From positions 1-64,000 of the forward strand of contig NZ_JAOQNX010000021.1 in NCBI RefSeq assembly GCF_025961575.1: a DNA stretch of 64,000 nucleotides, read 5' to 3'. Positions 7,196 to 26,642 of the stretch are shown piece by piece (positions within the stretch are counted from its first letter, which is position 1; the number at the start of each line of letters is the position of its first letter). The stretch is from Rhodoblastus acidophilus (GTDB taxonomy: Bacteria > Pseudomonadota > Alphaproteobacteria > Rhizobiales > Beijerinckiaceae). Both the position numbers and the translations under genes were made by a program. The notes below the pieces were generated by a model. The model saw nothing but the letters and a program-made list of their open reading frames with translations. It made no database searches and was not told the DNA's origin.

Positions 7196-8260
7196 TTACC
7201 TGACCTTGCGGTCGAAGGCCACACAGGATTGCGCGACCTCGGCGAGATCGGCCGCGAGCGCATCGACCTGCGCGGGATCGGCGTCCCAGGCGAACATGAA
7301 GCGCGCGGCGCCGCCGATGAATGTGTAGAAACGCCAGCCTTTTTGCCGCAAGGCGTCGAGCACGGTTTCGGGCGCGTTGAGGAACACGGCGTTGGCCTCG
7401 ACCGGAAAGGCCAGGGATACGCCGGGCAGGTCTCGGACTTTGTCGGCAAGCCTACGGGCGCAAAAATTCGCGTGGCGGGCGTTGCGCAGCCAGGCGCCGC
7501 TGGCGAGCAGGCCGAACCAGGGGGCGGCGAGATACCGCATTTTCGAGGCGAGCTGGCCCGCCTGCTTGCAGCGATATTCAAAATCCTTGGCCAGCGCCTT
7601 GTCGAAGAAAATGACGGCTTCGCCGAGGCCGAGGCCGTTCTTGGCGCCGCCGAAACACAGCACGTCGACGCCCGCCCGCCAGGTGATGTCGGCGGGCGCG
7701 CAGTTCAGCGCCGCGCAGGCGTTGGCGAACCGCGCGCCGTCCATGTGCAGTTTCAGGTCGAGTTCGCGACAGACGAAGGAAATGGCGCGCACCTGCTCGA
7801 CGGAATAGACCAGCCCCGTCTCGGTCGCCTGGGTGATCGAGGCGGCGCTCGGCTTGGGAAAATGGATGTCGCTGCGGCTGGTGGCGAGCGCGCGCAAACT
7901 TTCGGGCGTGAGCCGGCCGTCTGCGCTTGGAGCGGTCAAGAGTTTGGCGCCGTTGGAAAAGAATTCGGGCGCGCCGCATTCGTCGGTTTCGACATGGGCG
8001 GCGGACGAGCAGATCACGCTGTGAAAGCTTTGGCACACCGAGGACAAAGCGAGGGAGTTGGCGGCGGTGCCGTTGAAGACGAAAAAAACTTCGCATTCGG
8101 CCTCGAACAGGTCGCGGAACGCGTCCGCGGCCTTTTTCGTCCAGAGATCCTCGCCATAGGCGGGCGCCGAACCTGCGTTGGCTTTGGCCATGGCGGCCCA
8201 GGCTTCGGGGCAGATGCCGGCGTAATTGTCGCTGGCGAATTGCTGGGGTCTTTCAGTCAT
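7196..8260 (-). CDS. ltaE: Low-specificity L-threonine aldolase
   Basis: A 354-residue PLP-dependent enzyme of the threonine aldolase/beta-eliminating lyase family, cleaving L-(allo-)threonine to glycine and acetaldehyde. The N-terminal SDNYAGICPEAW and APAYGEDLWTKKA, the His motif SSAAHVETDECGAPEFF, the aspartate in LHMDGARFANA and the PLP lysine region FGGAKNGLGLGEA are all family landmarks. It starts at an ATG behind GGGG. A 104-aa hypothetical gene lies 55 bases upstream on the same strand, so the two may form an operon. A link to nitrogen fixation is not evident. Confidence 0.9.
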   Translation of the reverse strand: MTERPQQFASDNYAGICPEAWAAMAKANAGSAPAYGEDLWTKKAADAFRDLFEAECEVFFVFNGTAANSLALSSVCQSFHSVICSSAAHVETDECGAPEFFSNGAKLLTAPSADGRLTPESLRALATSRSDIHFPKPSAASITQATETGLVYSVEQVRAISFVCRELDLKLHMDGARFANACAALNCAPADITWRAGVDVLCFGGAKNGLGLGEAVIFFDKALAKDFEYRCKQAGQLASKMRYLAAPWFGLLASGAWLRNARHANFCARRLADKVRDLPGVSLAFPVEANAVFLNAPETVLDALRQKGWRFYTFIGGAARFMFAWDADPAQVDALAADLAEVAQSCVAFDRKVR

Positions 8261-8813: not shown

Positions 8814-9203
8814 ATGTCTGAAGAGGCTTTTGTTGTCTGCGCGCTGAGCGACATTCCCAGCCAGAAGGCCAAGGGATTTCACCTCGGAATCATCAATGAG
8901 GCCGGCGAGAAGGAGTCGTATCCCATTGTCGTCGTGCGCTGGGGCAAGCAGGTTTTTGGCTATCGCAACAAATGCCCGCACCACGGTTCGCATCTCGACT
9001 GGGAGCGCAACAGTTTTCTGGACGATTCGGGACAGCGGCTGCTGTGCGGCAAGCATGGCTCGCTGTTCGAGATCGGGTCGGGGCGCTGTTCCTCGGGGCC
9101 GTGCAAGGGCGAGTTTCTGGAGAAGGTGCGCCTCGAGGTGATCGACGGCGATATTTGCGTGCTGGGGCTGACGCTGATCGAGGATGAGGACGAGGAGGCG
9201 TGA
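8814..9203 (+). CDS. Rieske [2Fe-2S] domain protein
   Basis: A 129-residue Rieske-type protein. The cluster motifs are C-P-H-H-G (NKCPHHGSHLDW) and C-G-K-H-G (LLCGKHGSLFE), giving two Cys and two His ligands, followed by the GPCKGEFL strand typical of ferredoxin-type Rieske proteins. It probably acts as a soluble electron carrier; no oxygenase domain is attached. The ATG at 8814 follows GGAG at good spacing. A paralogue (25042-25482) lies in the sigma-54 globin operon, so this copy may also serve nitrogen fixation. Confidence 0.85.
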   Translation: MSEEAFVVCALSDIPSQKAKGFHLGIINEAGEKESYPIVVVRWGKQVFGYRNKCPHHGSHLDWERNSFLDDSGQRLLCGKHGSLFEIGSGRCSSGPCKGEFLEKVRLEVIDGDICVLGLTLIEDEDEEA

Positions 9204-9468
9204 CAGCGCCGGGGAGGGGCGTCCGCAGGTGTTCGATTTGAAGGGGTGGGGGGCGGCCATCGGCTCAAAAGAATCGCAGAATGCGCGTTCGAACATCGGC
9301 CATGGCGGCTCAAGGGGCATTGTCGCTTGAAGCTCCGCCCCTGCTCATGGGCGCGGATTTGAGGGTTGTTACAGCCTGGCGCAAGGCATCGGCGGGATAA
9401 AATCAATCAGAAATAAGAATAACCGCTCCGTGTCGATCGCGGCGCAATGTCTACATTGGGAGTTTCGC

Positions 9469-10809
9469 TTGACGTCCGACCGTGGGGCCGACAACTGCGC
9501 GCGACTGAAATTCTTCGACATCCGTCCGGAGGAGCGGCGGGTGCTTCCCGAAATCTGGACGCTCGTCAAGCCGAAGCTGCCGGAAATCATCGATGGATTT
9601 TACGCCCACGTCAGCACCGTCGATCACCTTGACCGGATGGTCGCCGGCAAGTGCCCGCATCTCAAGAGGGCGCAGACTGGCCATTGGATGCAGTTGTTTT
9701 CCGGACGATTCGACGACGCCTATTTCGACGCGGTGCGCCAGATCGGCATGGTGCATTTCCGGATCGGCCTGGAGCCGCGCTGGTATGTCGGCGGCTACCA
9801 GTTCATCCTGCGGCGGCTGTTCGACATCGCGGTGGACTCCAATCGCTGGTCGCCGCGGAAACTCAGGGATGTGCTGCGGGCGATCTCGACCGCGGTGATG
9901 CTGGACATGGAAACCGCGATTTCGGTTTACCAGGAGGCTTTGCTGTCGGAGCGCGAGCAGAAATGTCAGGGTCTCGACGCCCTGCTCAAGGGCTTGAACG
10001 CCAAGACGCAGGAGTCGCTTGCGGACCTCGCCGCGGCCTCCGTGCAATTGCAGACGACCGCTCGCGACATGACCGAAACCGCCACGAATACGCGCGCCCG
10101 CTCCGCGAGCGTGGCCTCCGCCTCTGAACAGACCAGCGTCAATGTGCAGACGGTGGCCTCCGCAGCCGAGGAATTGACGCGCTCCATCACCGAAATTCAT
10201 ACGCAGGTCGCTAAGTCAGCCGAGGCGGCCGACCGCGCCGTTGCCGAATCCGAGACCGCAAATGGGCTGGTCCGCACGCTGCGCGACAATGCCGAGAAGA
10301 TCAACGGCATTGTCCAGCTGATCCAGACGATCGCCGGACAAACCAACCTGCTGGCGCTCAACGCCACCATCGAGGCGGCGCGCGCCGGCGATGCCGGCAA
10401 GGGGTTCGCCGTTGTCGCCAACGAGGTCAAGACGCTGTCGAGCCAGACCGCGCGGGCCACAAACGAGATTACAGCGGCGATTGGCGAAATCCAGAACGCC
10501 AGCCGCGACGCCAGCCTGGCGATCGAGGCCATAGCCGCGCGCATTGGCGACCTCAGCCAAAATACCGGGACCATCTTCCAGAGCGTCGAGCAGCAGGGAG
10601 AGGCCACGCGCGAGATCGCACGCAACATTCACGAGGCAGCCGCCGGCGCTCGCGAAGTCGCCGCAAATGTCGTGGGCGTCAACACGGCCGCAGAAAAAAC
10701 CGACCTCTCGGCGCATCAGGTGATCGACGCAGCGTCGGCGCTGACGCGGCAGACCGCGCGACTTGGCGAGGATTTGAAGGCTTTCGCCGCGAAGGCGCAG
10801 GCGGTGTAG
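9469..10809 (+). CDS. Globin-coupled methyl-accepting chemotaxis protein (HemAT-like)
   Basis: A soluble O2/redox sensor for aerotaxis. The N-terminal ~160 residues are a protoglobin domain ([17 protein letters not shown]; proximal His in [20 protein letters not shown]). The remainder is a chemoreceptor signalling domain whose hairpin tip [17 protein letters not shown] and [14 protein letters not shown] is clear. There is no membrane segment, as in HemAT. I prefer the TTG at 9469, which has GGGAG six bases before it; a GTG at 9430 gives 13 more residues but has no ribosome binding site. Its partner CheA/CheW are not nearby. It could steer cells to low O2 suitable for nitrogenase. Confidence 0.88.
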
Positions 10810-11071: not shown

Positions 11072-11659
11072 TCAGACCGGGCGGTTCTCGTTGCGGTTGC
11101 GCACCGGCAGGGCCTTGGTGAGGAAATCCTCAAAGCTGATCTTTTCGTGGACGCCCTTGGTTTCAGCGGCCTTGTCGAGGATCAGCTGCACCTTGCCGCC
11201 GCCGTCGAGCTTCTTGAAATCGTTCTTGTCGAGGCCGGAGAGGTCCGACAGCTCTTTCCACACGGTGGATTCTTCCAGCGGGAACACGGTGAGGGTCGCG
11301 TCGCCGAAGGTGACCGTATATTTGGCCAGGAAGTCGATGTTGCCGGCGAAAATAACGTAATTGCCGGTCGACGACAGCAGCGGGCCGACGATGTCCTTGA
11401 ACGTCTTGAGGTTGTTGATGTCGTGGATGTAGCCGGCCAGCGCGTCGATGGTGGTTCCGCCGTCCTTGACGATGGCGAGGGCCTGCTCCAGGCAATATTC
11501 CGGCGGGCGCTTTTCGTCGGCCAGGGCCTCCTGGAATTTCAGCGCGAAATCGCCACGGAACGCCAGGTAACCGCTCTTGTCGCTCGGGCCCTTGTAGACG
11601 GCGTTGAGCAGGCGGCCCGCCGTTTCAAGGCCGGCGAGGGCGGTCGTCTCGTATGTCAT
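11072..11659 (-). CDS. Unknown 195-aa protein, sigma-54 associated
   Basis: A soluble protein of 195 residues that I cannot assign to a family. It is mixed alpha/beta, starts MTYETTALAGLETAGRLLNA, has one cysteine (PPEYCLEQ) and no signal peptide or membrane helix, and ends in a polar tail (RNRNENRPV). The ATG at 11659 has GGAG seven bases upstream. A sigma-54-like promoter lies 50 bases upstream (11710-11723) and a strong terminator downstream, so it is a monocistronic unit. It is divergent from the AAA+ ATPase gene, which has its own sigma-54-like promoter, within the nif region; a shared role as ATPase and substrate or adaptor is my inference. Confidence 0.8.
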   Translation of the reverse strand: MTYETTALAGLETAGRLLNAVYKGPSDKSGYLAFRGDFALKFQEALADEKRPPEYCLEQALAIVKDGGTTIDALAGYIHDINNLKTFKDIVGPLLSSTGNYVIFAGNIDFLAKYTVTFGDATLTVFPLEESTVWKELSDLSGLDKNDFKKLDGGGKVQLILDKAAETKGVHEKISFEDFLTKALPVRNRNENRPV

Positions 11660-11709
11660 TTCACACTCCGCATAAAATCTTCGCGCATCGTCGCGCTGAA
11701 AACAGCCAT

Positions 11710-11723
11710 GCAAATGGTTTGCC
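11710..11723 (-). promoter_or_regulatory. Sigma-54-like promoter of the 195-aa gene
   Basis: On the minus strand CGGCAAACCATTTGCA carries GG (11723-11722), ten bases and GC (11711-11710), with a good TTTGCA -12 element. It is 50 bases from the ATG at 11659. Confidence 0.6.
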
Positions 11724-11746
11724 GAAAATTTCGCCACAAAATGTAT

Positions 11747-11760
11747 GGCCTGTTCCCTGC
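11747..11760 (+). promoter_or_regulatory. Sigma-54-like promoter of the AAA+ ATPase gene
   Basis: TGGCCTGTTCCCTGCT carries GG (11747-11748), ten bases and GC (11759-11760). The -12 is CTGC rather than TTGC. It lies 40 bases before the ATG at 11801 and back to back with the leftward promoter at 11710-11723. No TGT-N10-ACA site was seen between them. Confidence 0.55.
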
Positions 11761-11800
11761 TTGTCGCAAAACCGGATGTTTTCGGTGAACGGAAGGCGAC

Positions 11801-13504
11801 ATGAGCGTCAAAATTCACATCGCGCGCCCCTTTGTGGAGGCTCTGGCGGACGATTTCCCCGAACTTGAATCGCTCAAACAGCAATTGCTGTTCGGCGACA
11901 AGGTCGAGGTCTCGTTTCTCGATCTTTCCGCGCCCCAGATCGAGCGCCTGCACGCGCTTTATGGCGCGGCCGGGCCGGCGCTGCAGAGCCAGCAGGCGCA
12001 AATCGCCACGTTGCGCCGCGCCTTTTCCGGCGACGGTCCCAAATTCGCCGCCGACGATCTCGAAGCCGTGGTTCCCGCGCTGGCGCGCTTTCTCGTCGAG
12101 GGCGGAGAGCGGGGCTGGCTGTTCACGCTGACGGCGCGCGGGCGGCCGCTGCCCTATGTGGTCTCGCGCATCGACTATACGCCGGCCAATAATGACGAGA
12201 CCGGGCGCATTTTCGTCGAGCTGAAAGCCAATTCCAAGGGCGAGCTGGCCACGGCGCAATTGCGCATCTCCGCCGGCGACGTCGAGGGCAAGACCGTCGC
12301 GGAGATTTTGGCGTCCAAAGGGTTTTTGCACGAGACGCCCGAGTTGATCGCGGCCTATGACGCCAATGCGGAGCGATATTTCGAATGGCGCGCGCATTAT
12401 GGCGCGCAATTTTCCGGCGTGGGCCTGGGCTATTTCGCCGAGGATCCCGCCTCCACCCACCGCAACACCGACTGGGCGCGCAAGGATAGCGTCATTCTCT
12501 CCTCAGGCGGCGCGCCCGCGCGTCTGGTGAATGATGAAAGCCTGCTCGCCAATCGCGCGCTGACCTTGGAGCTGACCGGCGATCTGCTCGGCTCCTATTT
12601 GCGCAAGGCGGCCAAGAGCAACGCCTTTTTCGAGGAGGACGAGGTCGCCGAGGTCAATGAAAACAAGGGCGCGGATCTGTTTCGCAGGATTCCCGTGCAT
12701 CCCTTCATCCTGATGTTCCATCTCGACCTGCACCATTATGTCTGGGCGCATGTCGAGGATTTGACGCCCTACGCCTATCAGCCCGACCTGAAACAGAAAC
12801 TGGTGCTGCCGGAGGAGCAGACCGATCTCATCGACATTCTCACCGCCGAAATGGACGTGCTGATGGACGACATTGTCGCCGGGAAATCCGGCGGCACCAC
12901 CGTTTTGTGCGCGGGACCGCCCGGCGTCGGCAAGACGCTGACGGCCGAAGTCTATTCCGAGATCGTTCGGCGGCCGTTGTATCGCGTTCACTCAGGGCAA
13001 TTGGGTCTGAATGTCGCGGCCATGGAGACCGCGCTCAAGGAGGCGCTGTTGCGCGCGCAGCGCTGGGGCGCGGTGATGCTGATCGACGAGGCCGACGTCT
13101 ATATCAAGCGGCGCCAGGACGACATGACCATGAATGCGGTGGTCGGCGTGTTTCTGCGTGTGCTCGAATATTTCAACGGGCTGCTGTTCCTGACCACGAA
13201 CCGCATCGACGACATTGACGAGGCCATTGTCTCGCGCTGCATCGCTTTGATCCGTTTTCATGCGCCTGACGCCGAGGCGCGGCGAAAAATCTGGGGCGTG
13301 ATGGCCGGGCAGTTTGCGCTCGACCTCGACGAGGCGCTGATCGGCGCGCTGGTCGACCTCTATCCCCAGACCAGCGGCCGCGACATCAAGGGGCTGGCGA
13401 AACTGGTCTCGAAATATTGTCGGCATCGCGACATCGCGCCCGATCTCGAGGTGTTCAAGCGCTGCGCCGTGTTCCGCGGCCTCGATCAGGCCGGCGCCGC
13501 CTGA
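11801..13504 (+). CDS. AAA+ ATPase of unknown role in nif region
   Basis: A 567-residue ATPase. The C-terminal half is a classical AAA module: Walker A GPPGVGKT (about residue 370), Walker B VMLIDEADVYIKRR, sensor-1 LFLTTNRIDDID and an arginine-bearing SRCIALIRF. The N-terminal ~330 residues (with TLTARGRPLPYVVSRIDYT) is a substrate or adaptor region I do not recognise. It is not NtrC-like (no GAFTGA loop) and lacks the MoxR/CbbX layout, so it is probably a protein-remodelling ATPase. It is divergent from the 195-aa gene and both have sigma-54-like promoters. The nif iscA gene follows after the terminator/promoter at 13580-13608. Confidence 0.88.
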   Translation: MSVKIHIARPFVEALADDFPELESLKQQLLFGDKVEVSFLDLSAPQIERLHALYGAAGPALQSQQAQIATLRRAFSGDGPKFAADDLEAVVPALARFLVEGGERGWLFTLTARGRPLPYVVSRIDYTPANNDETGRIFVELKANSKGELATAQLRISAGDVEGKTVAEILASKGFLHETPELIAAYDANAERYFEWRAHYGAQFSGVGLGYFAEDPASTHRNTDWARKDSVILSSGGAPARLVNDESLLANRALTLELTGDLLGSYLRKAAKSNAFFEEDEVAEVNENKGADLFRRIPVHPFILMFHLDLHHYVWAHVEDLTPYAYQPDLKQKLVLPEEQTDLIDILTAEMDVLMDDIVAGKSGGTTVLCAGPPGVGKTLTAEVYSEIVRRPLYRVHSGQLGLNVAAMETALKEALLRAQRWGAVMLIDEADVYIKRRQDDMTMNAVVGVFLRVLEYFNGLLFLTTNRIDDIDEAIVSRCIALIRFHAPDAEARRKIWGVMAGQFALDLDEALIGALVDLYPQTSGRDIKGLAKLVSKYCRHRDIAPDLEVFKRCAVFRGLDQAGAA

Positions 13505-13529: not shown

Positions 13530-13545
13530 TGTCGGGATGCTGACA
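13530..13545. promoter_or_regulatory. NifA upstream activator site for iscA operon
   Basis: TGT-CGGGATGCTG-ACA is an exact TGT-N10-ACA site. It ends 49 bases before the -24 element at 13595, closer than average but workable for an enhancer-binding protein. Confidence 0.65.
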
Positions 13546-13579
13546 CGCCGAAGAATAAACATTGAAATCAATGTGTTAC

Positions 13580-13606
13580 AAAAGCCGCGCCTCTGGCGCG
13601 GCTTTT
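13580..13606 (+). terminator. Hairpin terminator of the AAA+ gene, overlapping a promoter
   Basis: A perfect 12-bp stem (AAAAGCCGCGCC / GGCGCGGCTTTT) with a TCT loop. The right arm ends in TTTT, giving a plausible intrinsic terminator 75 bases after the AAA+ stop. The right arm is also the sigma-54 promoter of the next operon. Confidence 0.75.
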
Positions 13607-13608
13607 GC
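13595..13608 (+). promoter_or_regulatory. Sigma-54 promoter of iscA-nifU-cysE-nifW operon
   Basis: TGGCGCGGCTTTTGCT has GG (13595-13596), ten bases, GC (13607-13608) and matches the -24/-12 consensus well. A NifA site lies upstream at 13530-13545 and the iscA ATG is 41 bases downstream. Confidence 0.75.
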
Positions 13609-13648
13609 TTCCTTGATGTCCAAAGGCTTCTACTCCCTGGAGGACGAC

Positions 13649-13969
13649 ATGATCCATCTCACCGACAGCGCGCTTGACGCTGTGCGCAACGCGATCGCCA
13701 AGGCGCCGGAGCCGGTGCAGGGGCTGCGCCTCAAGGTCGAGTCCGGCGGCTGCGCCGGCAACAAATATCTGATGGGTCTGGTTCGCGCCGCCGAAGAGGA
13801 TGACGAGGTCGTCGAGCGCGACGGCGTCAAAGTGTTCCTCGAACATGACAGCCTGCCGCTGCTCTATGGCACGACCATCGATTTCGTCGTCGCCATCGAG
13901 GGCGCCGGCTTCACGTTCGACAATCCCAACGCCAGCCACGCCTGCTCCTGCGGCAAGAGTTTTGGCTGA
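13649..13969 (+). CDS. A-type Fe-S carrier (IscA/HesB) of nif system
   Basis: A 106-residue HesB/IscA-family protein that transfers [Fe-S] clusters. The three conserved cysteines are present: SGGCAGNKY and the C-terminal CSCGKSFG, here in HACSCGKSFG. I start at ATG 13649 because GGAGG sits six bases before it; an in-frame start at 13562 would lie across the hairpin. It is first in an operon with a NifU-C-domain gene, cysE and nifW, and is one of three A-type genes in this window. Confidence 0.92.
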   Translation: MIHLTDSALDAVRNAIAKAPEPVQGLRLKVESGGCAGNKYLMGLVRAAEEDDEVVERDGVKVFLEHDSLPLLYGTTIDFVVAIEGAGFTFDNPNASHACSCGKSFG

Positions 13970-13993
13970 TCCAGATCAGAGAGGGGAATCGTT

Positions 13994-14293
13994 ATGACCA
14001 TGCACACCGGAACCATTGTCGCCGAGGCGCCCGTGACCGTCGAAGACCAACGTGAAAAGCTCGTGCGCGAAGCCATCGAGGAAATTCGTCCGGCGCTGAA
14101 GCGCGATGGCGGCGACTGCGAGCTTTTGTCGATCGAAGGCAAGGTGGTGAACGTCAAGCTGACGGGCGCCTGCATCTTCTGCAGCCTCGCCAGCGCCACG
14201 CTGGAAGGCATCCAGGCGCGCATCGTCGAAAAGCTCGGCGAATTCGTGCGCGTCGTTCCCGCCCCGACCGGCTTCAAGCGTCCGGGACATTGA
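13994..14293 (+). CDS. nifU: NifU C-terminal-domain protein
   Basis: A 99-residue protein equal to the C-terminal (Nfu) domain of NifU, with the cluster motif C-IF-C in [19 protein letters not shown] and the preceding [15 protein letters not shown]. It lacks the N-terminal IscU-like and central [2Fe-2S] domains of full NifU, so it acts as a cluster carrier rather than a full scaffold. It sits 24 bases after iscA and 4 bases before cysE. A full-length nifU is not in the window. Confidence 0.92.
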
Positions 14294-14297
14294 GGGG

Positions 14298-15044
14298 ATG
14301 AAAGACGCGGTCATGCCGGCGGTCAACGCTGAGGCGGAGCGCGTCAGCCTTTGGTCGCGGTGGCGGGACGATATCGCTTGCGTCAAGGCGCGCGATCCCG
14401 CCGCGCGCAATGCGGTCGAAATCCTGCTCACCTATCCCGGCGTCCACGCCATCATCTGGCATCGGTTCTCCCACCGACTCTGGACCTCGGGCGCCAAATT
14501 TCCCGCGCGGTTCTTCGCCTGGGTGGCGCGCCTGCTCACCAATGTCGACATCCATCCCGGCGCGACCATCGGCCGCGAATTCTTCATCGATCATGGCGCG
14601 GGCGTGGTGATCGGCGAAACCGCCGAGATCGGCGACGGGGTCACGCTTTATCATGGCGTGACGCTTGGCGGCGTCAGCTGGACGCCGGGCAAGCGCCACC
14701 CCACGCTGGAAGACGGGGTGCTGGTCGGCGCCGGCGCGAAGATTTTGGGGCCGATCCGGATCGGCACCGGCGCGCGGATCGGCGCCAATTCGGTGGTGGT
14801 CGAAGAGGTGCCGCCGGGCGTCACCGCGGTCGGCATTCCCGCCCGCATCGTGCGCGCCATGGATCGCCGGGCGCTCGGCAATGGCCGGGTCAATCTCGAC
14901 CATCACCTGATCCCCGATCCCGTCGGCGAAGTGCTGTCGATGCTGCTCGACCGCGTCGAATTTTTGGAGGCCCGGCTCAACCATATGCAGGGTCGGGTTC
15001 AACGACACGAAGAAGAAAGGTTTGACGATGAGCGCGCTGGATGA
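14298..15044 (+). CDS. cysE: Serine O-acetyltransferase (CysE/NifP type)
   Basis: A 248-residue hexapeptide-repeat acetyltransferase making O-acetylserine for cysteine, the sulfur source for NifS. The [22 protein letters not shown] and [12 protein letters not shown] segments are CysE landmarks. Dedicated cysE copies in nif clusters are called nifP. The ATG is 4 bases after the NifU-C-domain gene. Its 3' end overlaps the nifW start, so the operon is tightly coupled. Confidence 0.93.
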
Positions 15045-15375
15045 TTTGGGCCGCCTGTCCTCGGCGGAAGATTTTTTCAATCACCTCGGGGTGGCGTTCG
15101 ACCCGGCGGTGGTGCGCGTGTCGCGCCTGCACATCATGCGGCGCATGGGCCAATATCTGAAGGGGCTGCAACTCGACGGCTCCTTCGAGGGCAAAAGCGA
15201 CGACGAGATCAAGGCCTTGTGCGCCGAACATCTGGAGCAGGCCTATCAGGATTTTGTCGAGAGCTCGCCCATTCAGGAGCGGCTGTTCAAGGTCCACAAG
15301 GATGCGGTGGCGCCCAAGGAAGAGGTGAAGCCGCAAAAGCCCTTCGTGCCGCTTTCTGATCTGACCGTCGGCTGA
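15028..15375 (+). CDS. nifW: NifW, nitrogenase stabilising/protective protein
   Basis: A 115-residue NifW, a small protein linked to protection or maturation of MoFe protein. [20 protein letters not shown] and [15 protein letters not shown]-like ([15 protein letters not shown]) stretches are typical. The ATG at 15028 lies 17 bases inside the end of cysE, after an AGAAAGG ribosome binding site. The C-terminal [16 protein letters not shown] is a common NifW tail. Confidence 0.92.
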
Positions 15376-15969: not shown

Positions 15970-16854
15970 ATGGCGACAGCGGCCCTTCTTTCCGACGCGA
16001 TCGCCGAAGAGGCGATTCTTTCCGGCCCCGAGGCGGAAAAGATTTTGGGCGAAGTCGCCGCGAAACTGCGCGGCGGAGACATCGTCCCCTATCTCGGCCC
16101 CGCCATTGTGGGGATGACCGAGCCTGCGATTCCGCTGGGTCCCGAGGGGCTGGCCGAGTTCTTCGGCAAGAAGGTGGCGCTGCCGCGCCGCGCCCGCGGC
16201 AACGCCTGGGCGTCCGCGCAATATATCGAAGGCTACAAGCTGCGGCCGACCGTTGTCCTGTTCATGACGGAAGCCTTTTCGGCGCCGGTGGCGCCTGCGC
16301 CGCTGCAGACGTTTCTGGCCGGGCTGAACCTGCCGCTGATCGTCGACACCTGGTATGACGGCGCGATGCGAAAAGCGCTCGCCGACAAGGGAGAGTGGGG
16401 CGAAGTGCAGGGCATTTCGCGCGCCGGCATTGGCGAAGACCGCTGGTTCCGCTTTTATGACGCCGCCGGCGGCGAGGCCAAGGCTGCGGATGCGGCGGGT
16501 TGGAAGACGCTGCTCTACAAGCCGCATGGCTCGGTGACGCCGGCGAAGAATTATCTGATCTCCGACGCCGATTATGTCGAGGTTCTGACCGAGATCGACA
16601 TTCAGACGCCGATCCCCGATGCGGTGAAGGATCGTCGCGGCGATCGCGGTTTCCTGTTCATCGGTTGCCGCTTCCATGACCAGATGCTGCGCACCTATGC
16701 GCGGCAGGTTTCGAAACGGTCGGCGCCGCCGCATTATGCGGTGATCGAGCCCGACCAGGAATTGACGCTCAATGAAAAGCGTTTCTTTGCGGCGGAGAAT
16801 ATCGTGCCGCTCGCCATTCCATTGGCGCGCGCCTGCGAGATCATCATGGCGTGA
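15970..16854 (+). CDS. SIR2-like domain protein in nif operon
   Basis: A 294-residue soluble protein that I place tentatively in the divergent SIR2-like (SIR2_2) group. Supporting points: a gly-rich turn after a hydrophobic strand (GGDIVPYLGPAIVG), KPHGSVTPAKNYLIS, where HG may match the catalytic His of SIR2 enzymes, and near the end FLFIGCRFHDQMLRTYARQ, like the FIGYS-x-D-x-x-LR motif of SIR2_2. The usual GAG-[IL]-S NAD-binding start is altered to LGPAI, so NAD chemistry is unproven. It starts two bases after nifT and precedes nifB. No zinc-cysteine module is present, unlike the CobB at 45580. Confidence 0.65.
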   Translation: MATAALLSDAIAEEAILSGPEAEKILGEVAAKLRGGDIVPYLGPAIVGMTEPAIPLGPEGLAEFFGKKVALPRRARGNAWASAQYIEGYKLRPTVVLFMTEAFSAPVAPAPLQTFLAGLNLPLIVDTWYDGAMRKALADKGEWGEVQGISRAGIGEDRWFRFYDAAGGEAKAADAAGWKTLLYKPHGSVTPAKNYLISDADYVEVLTEIDIQTPIPDAVKDRRGDRGFLFIGCRFHDQMLRTYARQVSKRSAPPHYAVIEPDQELTLNEKRFFAAENIVPLAIPLARACEIIMA

Positions 16855-25484: not shown

Positions 25485-25751
25485 ATGACGACACGCTATT
25501 TTCTGTCCACCAGCGGCATCAAATTGCCGCTGCGCATGGTCAATGAGATCGAACAGGACGCCTTGTCCAACCGCAACACCTATATTCGCGCCGATTACGA
25601 TGGCGATGGCCGGTTGCTGCGCTTCGAAAAGCTGGTCTATGGCGACATCGAGCTGACCCACGCCTATGAATATGACGCGGAGGGGGCGCTGCGCCGCGCG
25701 GAAATCGCGCTGGCCGACGAGGACCCGATGGTGCTGGATTTCCCGGCATGA
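25485..25751 (+). CDS. Small conserved-looking protein upstream of globin, 88 aa
   Basis: An 88-residue soluble protein, MTTRYFLSTSGIKLPLRMVNEIE..., predicted mostly beta strands (YIRADYDGDGRLLRFEKLVYGDIELTHAYEYDAEG). I believe similar proteins (DUF6156-like) are found next to nif globins, but cannot verify. It starts two bases after the Rieske stop and overlaps the globin start by four. No cysteine or metal motif. Confidence 0.72.
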   Translation: MTTRYFLSTSGIKLPLRMVNEIEQDALSNRNTYIRADYDGDGRLLRFEKLVYGDIELTHAYEYDAEGALRRAEIALADEDPMVLDFPA

Positions 25752-26122
25752 GCCTTTATGAGCGCATCGGCGGCGCCGTGACCATCGATCGCGTGGTCGA
25801 GAGTTTTTATCGCGCCATGGACGAATTGCCGCAGGCGAAGACGATCCGCGCCATGCACGCCGACAATCTCGCCGGCGTGAAAGTGGTGCTGAAGAAATAT
25901 CTGAGCGAATGGACCGGCGGGCCCGCGCTCTATTCGCCGGTCAAGGGGCATCCGCGCATGCGCCAGCGCCATATGGGTTTCGCCATCGACAATGCCGCCC
26001 GCGACGCCTGGATGGCCTGCATGGACCAGGCGCTGGCGGAGCATGTGTCGGACCCCGAGGCGCGCGACACCTTGCGCGACAATATGAAAAAGCTCGCGGA
26101 TTGGATGCGCAACAGCGAATGA
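25748..26122 (+). CDS. Truncated hemoglobin, group II type (copy 1)
   Basis: A 124-residue 2/2 globin: SLYERIGG start, VESFYRAMDELP, then WTGGPALYSPVKGHPRMRQRH (GHP...RH with the proximal histidine region) and AWMACMDQAL, as in group II truncated globins. Group II globins bind O2 and NO tightly and often detoxify NO. It is translationally coupled to the 88-aa gene and is under the sigma-54 promoter at 24992, tying it to nitrogen fixation. Confidence 0.9.
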   Translation: MSLYERIGGAVTIDRVVESFYRAMDELPQAKTIRAMHADNLAGVKVVLKKYLSEWTGGPALYSPVKGHPRMRQRHMGFAIDNAARDAWMACMDQALAEHVSDPEARDTLRDNMKKLADWMRNSE

Positions 26123-26249: not shown

Positions 26250-26642
26250 ATGAGTGAGTCGGCTGCGGGCAGCATTTATGAGCGCATCGGCGGCGTCGAG
26301 ACGATCAACAAGGTGGTCGATAGTTTTTACCGCCACATGAGCCTGTTGCCGCAGGCGCAGACCATTCGCGCCATGCATGGCGACGGCCTGATCGCCATGA
26401 AGAGCGTGCTGAAGAAATATCTCACCGAACAGACCGGCGGACCCGATCTCTATTCGTCGGAAAAGGGCCATCCGCCCATGCTCCAGCGCCACCAGGCCTT
26501 TCCCATCGACAATTACGCCGCCGACGTCTGGATGGAATGCATGGATCTCGCGCTGTCGGAGCATGTCGCCGACGCCGATGTCCGCACGCAATTGCACGCC
26601 AAGATCCGGTCGCTCGCCGACATGATGCGCAATACCAAATAA
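26250..26642 (+). CDS. Truncated hemoglobin, group II type (copy 2)
   Basis: A 130-residue paralogue of the globin at 25748: SIYERIGGVETINKVVDSFY, EQTGGPDLYSSEKGHPPMLQRHQAF and VWMECMDLAL. The group II landmarks are kept, though the sequence differs at many positions. It lies 127 bases after the first copy; I saw no sigma-54 or sigma-70 promoter in the gap, so both may share a transcript. ATG 26250 (GGAG ten bases before) is preferred to the TTG at 26241. Two globin genes side by side suggest separate O2 and NO tasks, as inference. Confidence 0.9.
   Translation: MSESAAGSIYERIGGVETINKVVDSFYRHMSLLPQAQTIRAMHGDGLIAMKSVLKKYLTEQTGGPDLYSSEKGHPPMLQRHQAFPIDNYAADVWMECMDLALSEHVADADVRTQLHAKIRSLADMMRNTK

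Follow-up and report, generated by a model that had tools for sequence, protein, structure and literature searches.

A conserved divergent gene pair with putative sigma-54-type promoter elements, nearly restricted to nitrogen-fixing Proteobacteria

Introduction

Do two genes that face away from each other in a nif region of Rhodoblastus acidophilus, each preceded by a possible sigma-54-type promoter, serve nitrogen fixation, and do they do so together? The DNA that raises this question (positions 1 to 64,000 of contig NZ_JAOQNX010000021.1, the whole 64-kb stretch being called the window below) carries a gene for a 195-aa protein, here named O195, and a divergently oriented gene for a 567-aa AAA+ ATPase; the gap of 141 bp between them contains no further called gene. 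An initial annotation, made from the sequence alone, had given the two genes the same coordinates, lengths and orientations, and had proposed that they belong to one nitrogenase-linked system served by back-to-back promoters. As judged from sequence comparison, this is a real and conserved gene pair, nearly restricted to diazotrophs and placed under a conserved divergent promoter of putative sigma-54 type. Its features are the following.

11072..11659, minus strand: O195 gene (195-aa nif-associated protein), start ATG at 11659
11708..11724, minus strand: −24/−12 (sigma-54-type) element toward O195, CGGCAAACCATTTGCAT, with GG-N10-GC at 11710-11723 (CGGCAAACCATTTGCA)
11746..11761, plus strand: −24/−12 (sigma-54-type) element toward the ATPase gene, TGGCCTGTTCCCTGCT, with GG-N10-GC at 11747-11760, 39 bp before the ATG
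11801..13504, plus strand: AAA+ ATPase gene, 567 aa, one AAA module
11801..12835, plus strand: ATPase N-terminal domain, residues 1-345, without family match

Conservation of the divergent promoter elements

Both GG-N10-GC elements were found where the initial annotation had placed them, on the O195 side and on the ATPase side, and their slight deviation from consensus is real: each matches TGGCACG-N4-TTGCW at 9 of 12 positions. Sites scoring at least 9/12 occur 33 times in the window, both strands counted; by chance, 141 bp would contain 0.036 such sites per strand, and a divergent pair would be expected at ~0.0013. Taken alone, both elements are unremarkable; it is their conservation that is decisive.

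Divergent O195-ATPase pairs were observed 12 times (once in the window and 11 times among the 80 relatives), with one more in genome G006. We aligned the intergenic regions of 11 of the 12 pairs, namely those of the window, five Rhodoblastus, a Beijerinckiaceae metagenome-assembled genome (MAG), two Rhizobiales MAGs, Afipia and Azorhizobium; locus L084 was excluded because its gap is 727 bp. The −24/−12 GG-N10-GC before both genes is invariant in all 11 aligned loci. Only 21 of the 141 intergenic columns are invariant, and 19 of these fall within the two elements, which together take up 33 columns (p = 9e-13, a value that is indicative only because the aligned rows are related). The spacers between the elements diverge across the 11 loci while the elements stay. 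With 19 of 21 invariant columns inside them, the two elements appear to have been kept by selection, which bears out the promoter pair proposed initially.

The O195-facing element is also retained at O195 copies without an intact neighbouring ATPase gene (L050, L054 and L059) and at L060, whose genome has no intact ATPase gene. In other genera a globin gene often stands first, and no such element was found upstream of most O195 copies there. For the ATPase gene, we compared the 80 relatives plus the window with the other genes of the same loci: the best site within 250 bp upstream scored at least 9 in 34 of 81 ATPase genes versus 119 of 675 other genes (p = 3e-6). In shuffled sequence, with base content preserved but dinucleotide content not, the frequency of upstream sites scoring at least 9 was 6%.

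Distribution of the two families relative to nif

A sample of 100 relatives, chosen without motif selection, contains a full-length ATPase gene in 15 genomes; G007 holds a remnant in two fragments. This remnant (L050, G007:C128, ~7749-8047) lies between an intact O195 gene and iscA in a congener, and looks like a recent loss. nifD scored over the cut-off in 22 of the 100 genomes, that is in 12 of the 15 with the ATPase versus 10 of the 85 others (Fisher p = 2e-7). Of the three remaining ATPase genomes, G009 and G059 have nifD fragments, G009 additionally having nifH over the cut-off, and in G051 neither nifD nor nifH is over the cut-off; nifB and nifA homologues lie near its O195 gene.

A scan of named genomes by two short motifs found 333 ATPase relatives, of which the best 80 were used. 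Carriers among these 80 include Bradyrhizobium BTAi1, Azorhizobium, Derxia, Methylococcus, Methylocystis, Beijerinckia, Sulfuriferula, Ferrovum, Thiobacillus, Azonexus and Dechloromonas. Of the 80 loci, 74 are from genera other than Rhodoblastus (L081-L154); they come from 73 genomes, at least two of which probably repeat genomes of the relatives set; nifD is over the cut-off in 61 of the 73, a NifD-family match of any kind is present in 70, and three have none. One scan motif lies inside a His-rich stretch of the protein, so that close relatives picked by motif underlie both the invariance of that stretch and this nif count; the samples of the phylum and of 100 relatives are free of such selection.

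An even sample of 398 Pseudomonadota yielded matches to a profile of the ATPase N-terminal domain in 8 genomes. Four close copies (in the source genome, G534, G537 and G590) are accompanied by nifD over the cut-off. G583 has an interrupted copy and a NifE-level match only, with nifD not over the cut-off; the interrupted frame (G583:C7, L206) fits a loss along with nif, or a sequencing fault. An even class sample of 385 genomes produced an ATPase match in the source genome only. The nifD search covered only part of the phylum and class samples.

O195 behaves similarly. It is present in 19 of the 100 relatives, with nifD over the cut-off in 16 of these 19 versus 6 of the 81 others (p = 4e-11). 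Its 14 matches in the phylum sample fall in genomes of which 13 have nifD over the cut-off; the exception, G751, is the weakest phylum match (E = 9e-4). Given relatives in both samples, the 195-aa gene is not the orphan it had been taken for. In at least 16 of the 44 ATPase genomes that carry it, the O195 gene lies within 3 kb of nifD.

Presence mainly in genomes that lack nif genes, which would speak against the nif link suggested in the initial annotation, was looked for and not seen. Because they occur almost only in nitrogen-fixing Proteobacteria and have a conserved divergent promoter, both genes probably serve nitrogenase.

The ATPase: motifs and comparison with known classes

The ATPase has a single AAA module (PF00004 at residues 368-486, 60 bits versus the curated cut-off of 21.2, E = 4e-16) with Walker A, Walker B and sensor-1 motifs, which places it in the AAA family, where it is a distinct clade. 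Walker A residues G372, P373, G375, G377, K378 and T379, Walker B residues D429 and E430, sensor-1 N467 and a candidate arginine finger, R479 (in an S-R-C context), are invariant in 63 of 63 ATPases; position 374 is Pro or Ala, and position 376 is Val in 62 of these sequences. By these motifs, the protein would be expected to form an ATP-hydrolysing ring. Pore loop 1 is without the aromatic residue, because in a profile alignment L-N-V-A stands opposite K-W-V-G of a VCP-like ATPase; among the 63 sequences, 57 have Asn and 6 have Ser at position 404. Deletion of the loop was considered and rejected, as the profile alignment shows substitution, not shortening.

Residues 1 to ~330 had zero matches in Pfam, NCBIfam or PDB sequences at the thresholds used, in agreement with the initial annotation, to whose author the N-terminal 330 residues had matched nothing known. 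Five His residues of this domain (300, 307, 311, 312 and 317) are invariant in the 63 sequences, some of these His being covered by the scan motif, and they are equally invariant in 15 aligned sequences obtained without motif selection. A similar His-rich N-terminal domain is present in three nif-negative cousins of the ATPase (L203, L204 and L205); four of the five His are kept in two of them and three in one, and Trp315 is kept in all three. In an AlphaFold2 (AF2) model, residues 1-210 are good (block means 75 to 94); structure searches with this model probed mainly the AAA part.

How does this protein relate to ATPases of known function? Like NifA and other sigma-54 activators it is a nif-linked AAA+ ATPase; unlike them, it has no GAFTGA motif and no match to PF00158, GAF or helix-turn-helix domains. 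With both GAFTGA and PF00158 missing, membership in the activators was rejected, and the early view that this is not a regulator of the usual kind was correct. Searches of Pfam and NCBIfam found no protease, ClpX, sigma-54 or DNA-binding domain; neither the ClpX model nor the ClpX zinc-binding N-terminal domain appeared among rows with E up to 1, the NCBIfam scores for FtsH and Lon were 11.3 versus 1008 and 12.3 versus 608, and no peptidase domain was found. We therefore rejected membership in ClpX or the AAA+ proteases, as there is no family or protease-domain match. The anti-phage ATPases IetA and TRIP13 are alike in the AAA module (PADLOC E = 2e-12 and 9e-9, respectively), but the stretches matched by PADLOC begin at residue 329 or later, and the NCBIfam anti-phage ATPase model gives a score of 33 versus a cut-off of 510; a defence role was rejected, since the similarity is confined to the AAA module. 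The CDC48/VCP, PAN and Rix7-type proteins also resemble the ATPase in the AAA module, the best relatives among PDB sequences being VCP-like, and the ATPase differs from them by its own N-terminal domain, its L-N-V-A pore loop and its S-R-C motif.

The O195 protein

O195 has no Pfam or NCBIfam match; its family is absent from the libraries searched. Its AF2 model has a pLDDT of 89.4 and a pTM of 0.86, with values below 50 at residues 191-195. The predicted fold is confident, and no clear match was found among solved structures. According to the model, O195 would be small and rich in beta structure, and its conserved C-terminal tail would be exposed; the tail ends in NRNENRPV, and the terminal RPV is invariant across the family.

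A shorter O195 paralogue was detected in 13 of the 19 O195-bearing relatives. The six short paralogues that were aligned have neither the tail nor an internal segment of the ADEKRPPE type. One such tail-less paralogue, at L061:8816-9334 (G000:C14), has flanking gene clusters that recur in G006 (L069); the neighbours of the short paralogue in the source genome are genes for CTP synthase, SecG and triosephosphate isomerase, and SurA-like and anthranilate-synthase-like genes. The idea that the short form is a partner of an alternative nitrogenase was rejected on account of these housekeeping neighbours, found likewise in G006.

Association of O195 with the ATPase

Members of the O195 family are present in 44 of 50 ATPase genomes, 42 of them with the long form (a count of the matches listed), and in the phylum sample O195 occurs in 4 of 5 ATPase genomes versus 9 of 393 others (p = 3e-6). 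This co-occurrence is strong, yet it largely follows nif. At 62 of the 80 ATPase loci O195 is not within the flanks examined; within the ATPase tree, the divergent pair is confined to one supported part of 20 rows, 8 of them without it; and each gene is found without the other in some genomes. Since the two usually lie at different places and either may be present by itself, one machine made of both would be a conjecture. The initial proposal holds for the link to nif, but goes further than the data for an ATPase that works with an adaptor or substrate as one system. A shared task is nevertheless plausible, as far as sequence data can tell.

Proposed function

Starting from the locus anatomy, the conserved promoter elements, the motor motifs and the near-restriction to diazotrophs, we would give an even chance to the proposal that the ATPase is a nif-dedicated, non-proteolytic AAA+ remodelling ATPase under sigma-54 control together with nitrogenase, with O195 as a possible partner or client. 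The ATPase would be made along with nitrogenase under sigma-54 control, the activator presumably being NifA, and would form an ATP-hydrolysing ring whose family-specific N-terminal domain selects its client among nitrogenase-related proteins, be it an assembly factor of the Nif set, a component of nitrogenase or a form damaged by oxygen. ATP hydrolysis would then alter or dismantle the client; degradation is not envisaged, because there is no protease domain and the pore loop is without the threading aromatic. O195, which in the pair-bearing lineage has a back-to-back promoter arrangement with the ATPase gene, may interact with the ATPase as partner or client; it also keeps other company, that of truncated haemoglobin and Rieske ferredoxin. 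A more far-reaching version, in which an unrecognised nitrogenase-remodelling machine, widespread in Proteobacteria, would use a dedicated AAA+ 'activase' to open or reset a nitrogenase component or assembly scaffold, with O195 (possibly a new fold) delivering the client via its conserved disordered tail, seems doubtful to us.

Several results weigh against the remodelling proposal. Ten nifD-positive relatives have no full-length ATPase gene; the ATPase is thus not essential for nitrogenase. The three ATPase genomes without a NifD-family match in the named-genome scan (G480, G520 and G881) are all MAGs; in G480, nifB lies on the same contig as the ATPase gene. At the thresholds used, a core nif gene was found within the flanks examined at only 18 of the 80 ATPase loci. 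Distant cousins with the same architecture occur in the phylum sample in three genomes without a NifD-family match (G744, G750 and G844), hence the architecture is not nif-specific. In the ATPase tree, the cousins sit outside the nif group on long branches; the architecture would appear to be older or wider than nif, with one clade now nearly diazotroph-restricted. Among the 25 nif-positive relatives (the 22 with nifD over the cut-off plus G009, G059 and G051), O195 is present in 14 of the 15 with the ATPase versus 5 of the 10 without it (p = 0.02), so that the mutual association of the two families within nif-positive genomes is weak. The AF2 model of the ATPase is poor in the AAA core, with pLDDT below 50 over residues 328-487.

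The activator belongs to the same set of points. Neither the pair region of the window nor the 250 bp on each side of it contains an exact NifA site (TGT-N10-ACA). Over the ATPase loci, neither the joint test for promoter and NifA site (8 of 80 versus 30 of 673 other genes, p = 0.05) nor that for the NifA site alone (15 of 80 versus 78 of 673, p = 0.07) gave a clearly higher frequency. Because of this absence at the pair and the lack of clear enrichment over the loci, NifA can be named only as the presumed activator of the O195 and ATPase promoters in Rhodoblastus. TGT-N10-ACA is present ~128 bp upstream of the ATPase gene in L128, L131, L135, L146 and L154 (Azonexus, Dechloromonas, Zoogloea and kin).

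Alternative explanations

It is a serious possibility, though one we would not bet on, that O195 and the ATPase each assist nif on their own and came to have a common intergenic region by chance in one lineage, with O195 working alongside truncated haemoglobin and Rieske ferredoxin in the management of oxygen or nitric oxide and the ATPase acting elsewhere. A truncated-haemoglobin gene on the same strand neighbours O195 in 21 of 55 locus records, or in 18 of 48 distinct places, since seven places were fetched twice; Pfam confirmed the globin in L055 and L148. Many of the remaining O195 loci have Rieske ferredoxin and iscA-like neighbours. The restriction of the divergent pair to one supported part of the ATPase tree and the solitary occurrence of each gene agree with separate roles, whereas the frequent presence of O195, mostly in its long form, in ATPase genomes and the co-occurrence in the phylum sample argue against them, though both families follow nif.

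We consider it rather unlikely that the ATPase acts not on a Nif protein but in the upkeep of a redox enzyme by which nitrogenase is supplied or protected. In several lineages, a gene ends within ~30 bases of the ATPase start, and its identity varies by lineage: it is FAD (flavin adenine dinucleotide) amine-oxidase-like in Bradyrhizobium (L082:6385-8001), encodes a 551-aa nitroreductase-family protein in Methylocystis (L125:6352-8004) and in Thiobacillus-type genomes encodes a protein of 126 aa that has no Pfam match. Such an arrangement would speak for this reading, but the partner changes with lineage and none adjoins the ATPase gene in the window. In four relatives from the same family, L042, L044, L046 and L047, the ATPase gene lies among genes such as that for the exonuclease VII small subunit; in three of the four, these include an adenine glycosylase gene. 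All neighbourhood genes come from a simple gene caller that missed or mis-oriented some of them (e.g. in L076, L080 and L098).

Less likely still is a role as an unfoldase supplying a protease with nitrogenase-related proteins, comparable to the reported control of NifB and NifEN levels by ClpX2 in Azotobacter vinelandii. A 2011 paper by Martinez-Noel, which we know by its title in a reference list, is reportedly about regulation of NifB and NifEN levels by A. vinelandii ClpX. According to a passage in PMC3916325, a ClpX of A. vinelandii regulates how much NifB and NifEN is present during N2 fixation. In a passage of another paper, clpX2 is the last gene of the A. vinelandii iscA-nifUSV-cysE1-nifWZM group (PMC9866876), and the Rhodoblastus ATPase gene stands just before iscA-, nifU-, cysE- and nifW-like genes. 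To judge from that passage, ClpX2 and the ATPase are alike as nif-linked AAA+ ATPases of an iscA-nifU-cysE-nifW neighbourhood, with the difference that clpX2 ends its group and the ATPase gene precedes the genes concerned. The ATPase belongs to another AAA+ family, with an unmatched N-terminal domain; it has no protease domain and no ClpX family match in Pfam or NCBIfam, and at pore loop 1 it has L-N-V-A, with Asn or Ser at position 404, instead of the aromatic-bearing K-W-V-G. It may be a functional or positional analogue of ClpX2, though it is not a ClpX.

Finally, a chance origin of the GG-N10-GC pair, with both genes transcribed from other promoters, would suit the score of just 9/12 of each element, the 33 equally good sites and the lack of an exact adjacent NifA site in the window, but the elements stay conserved in 11 loci whose spacers diverge, which makes it most improbable, and we rejected it.

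Relation to published work

In open-licence PMC papers, to which the search was confined, neither this ATPase nor O195 was found described. The closest published trace of such an ATPase may be azo3791 of Azoarcus sp. BH72. In the passage that mentions it, azo3791 is a 'conserved hypothetical ATPase' located outside the nif cluster and one of eight genes with a predicted RpoN site and a predicted NifA site, drawn from lists of expression changes under N2 fixation and with NifA (PMC3916325), the one paper that a search for azo3791 found; the likeness to the Rhodoblastus ATPase is by description only, and orthology would be a guess.

Neighbouring genes in the window

The O195 and ATPase genes are flanked by a gene for a globin-coupled chemotaxis receptor and by an iscA-like gene, with more nif genes on either side. 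Other features of the surroundings are listed below.

8814..9203, plus strand: Rieske-type ferredoxin gene (Pfam PF00355)
13530..13609, plus strand: TGT-N10-ACA at 13530 and −24/−12 element TGGCGCGGCTTTTGCT at 13594, upstream of the iscA-like gene (13616)
13616..15375, plus strand: iscA-like, nifU C-terminal-like, cysE-like and nifW-like genes (gene calls, downstream of the ATPase gene)

The names of the nif-region genes (iscA-, nifU-, cysE- and nifW-like) are mostly putative assignments made from sequence, not via family search. The elements at 13530 and 13594 probably mark the start of the following nif operon. nifD of the source assembly is on a different contig from the O195 and ATPase genes. 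The nearest named relatives are Rhodoblastus, with R. acidophilus DSM 142 reaching 93% across the N-terminal domain of the ATPase.

The receptor gene (9430-10809), which adjoins O195 within the nif region, encodes Protoglobin and MCP signal domains. In nif regions of Alphaproteobacteria, O195 often has a Rieske-type ferredoxin gene as a neighbour. A second Rieske-like gene (25042) stands beside two genes of the nif region, 25748-26122 and 26250-26642, which we take to encode truncated haemoglobins; relatives of the gene at 26250 adjoin O195 in other genera. A protein with a SIR2-like domain (PF13289) is encoded at 15970-16854, and its relatives were found in nif regions of several genera.

Significance

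Transfer of nitrogenase into other organisms requires knowledge of every accessory factor. The O195 and ATPase families track nif across alpha-, beta- and gammaproteobacteria, and one of them is predicted to be ATP-driven; they look like missing accessory parts. Their distribution makes both families directly testable by deletion in tractable diazotrophs.

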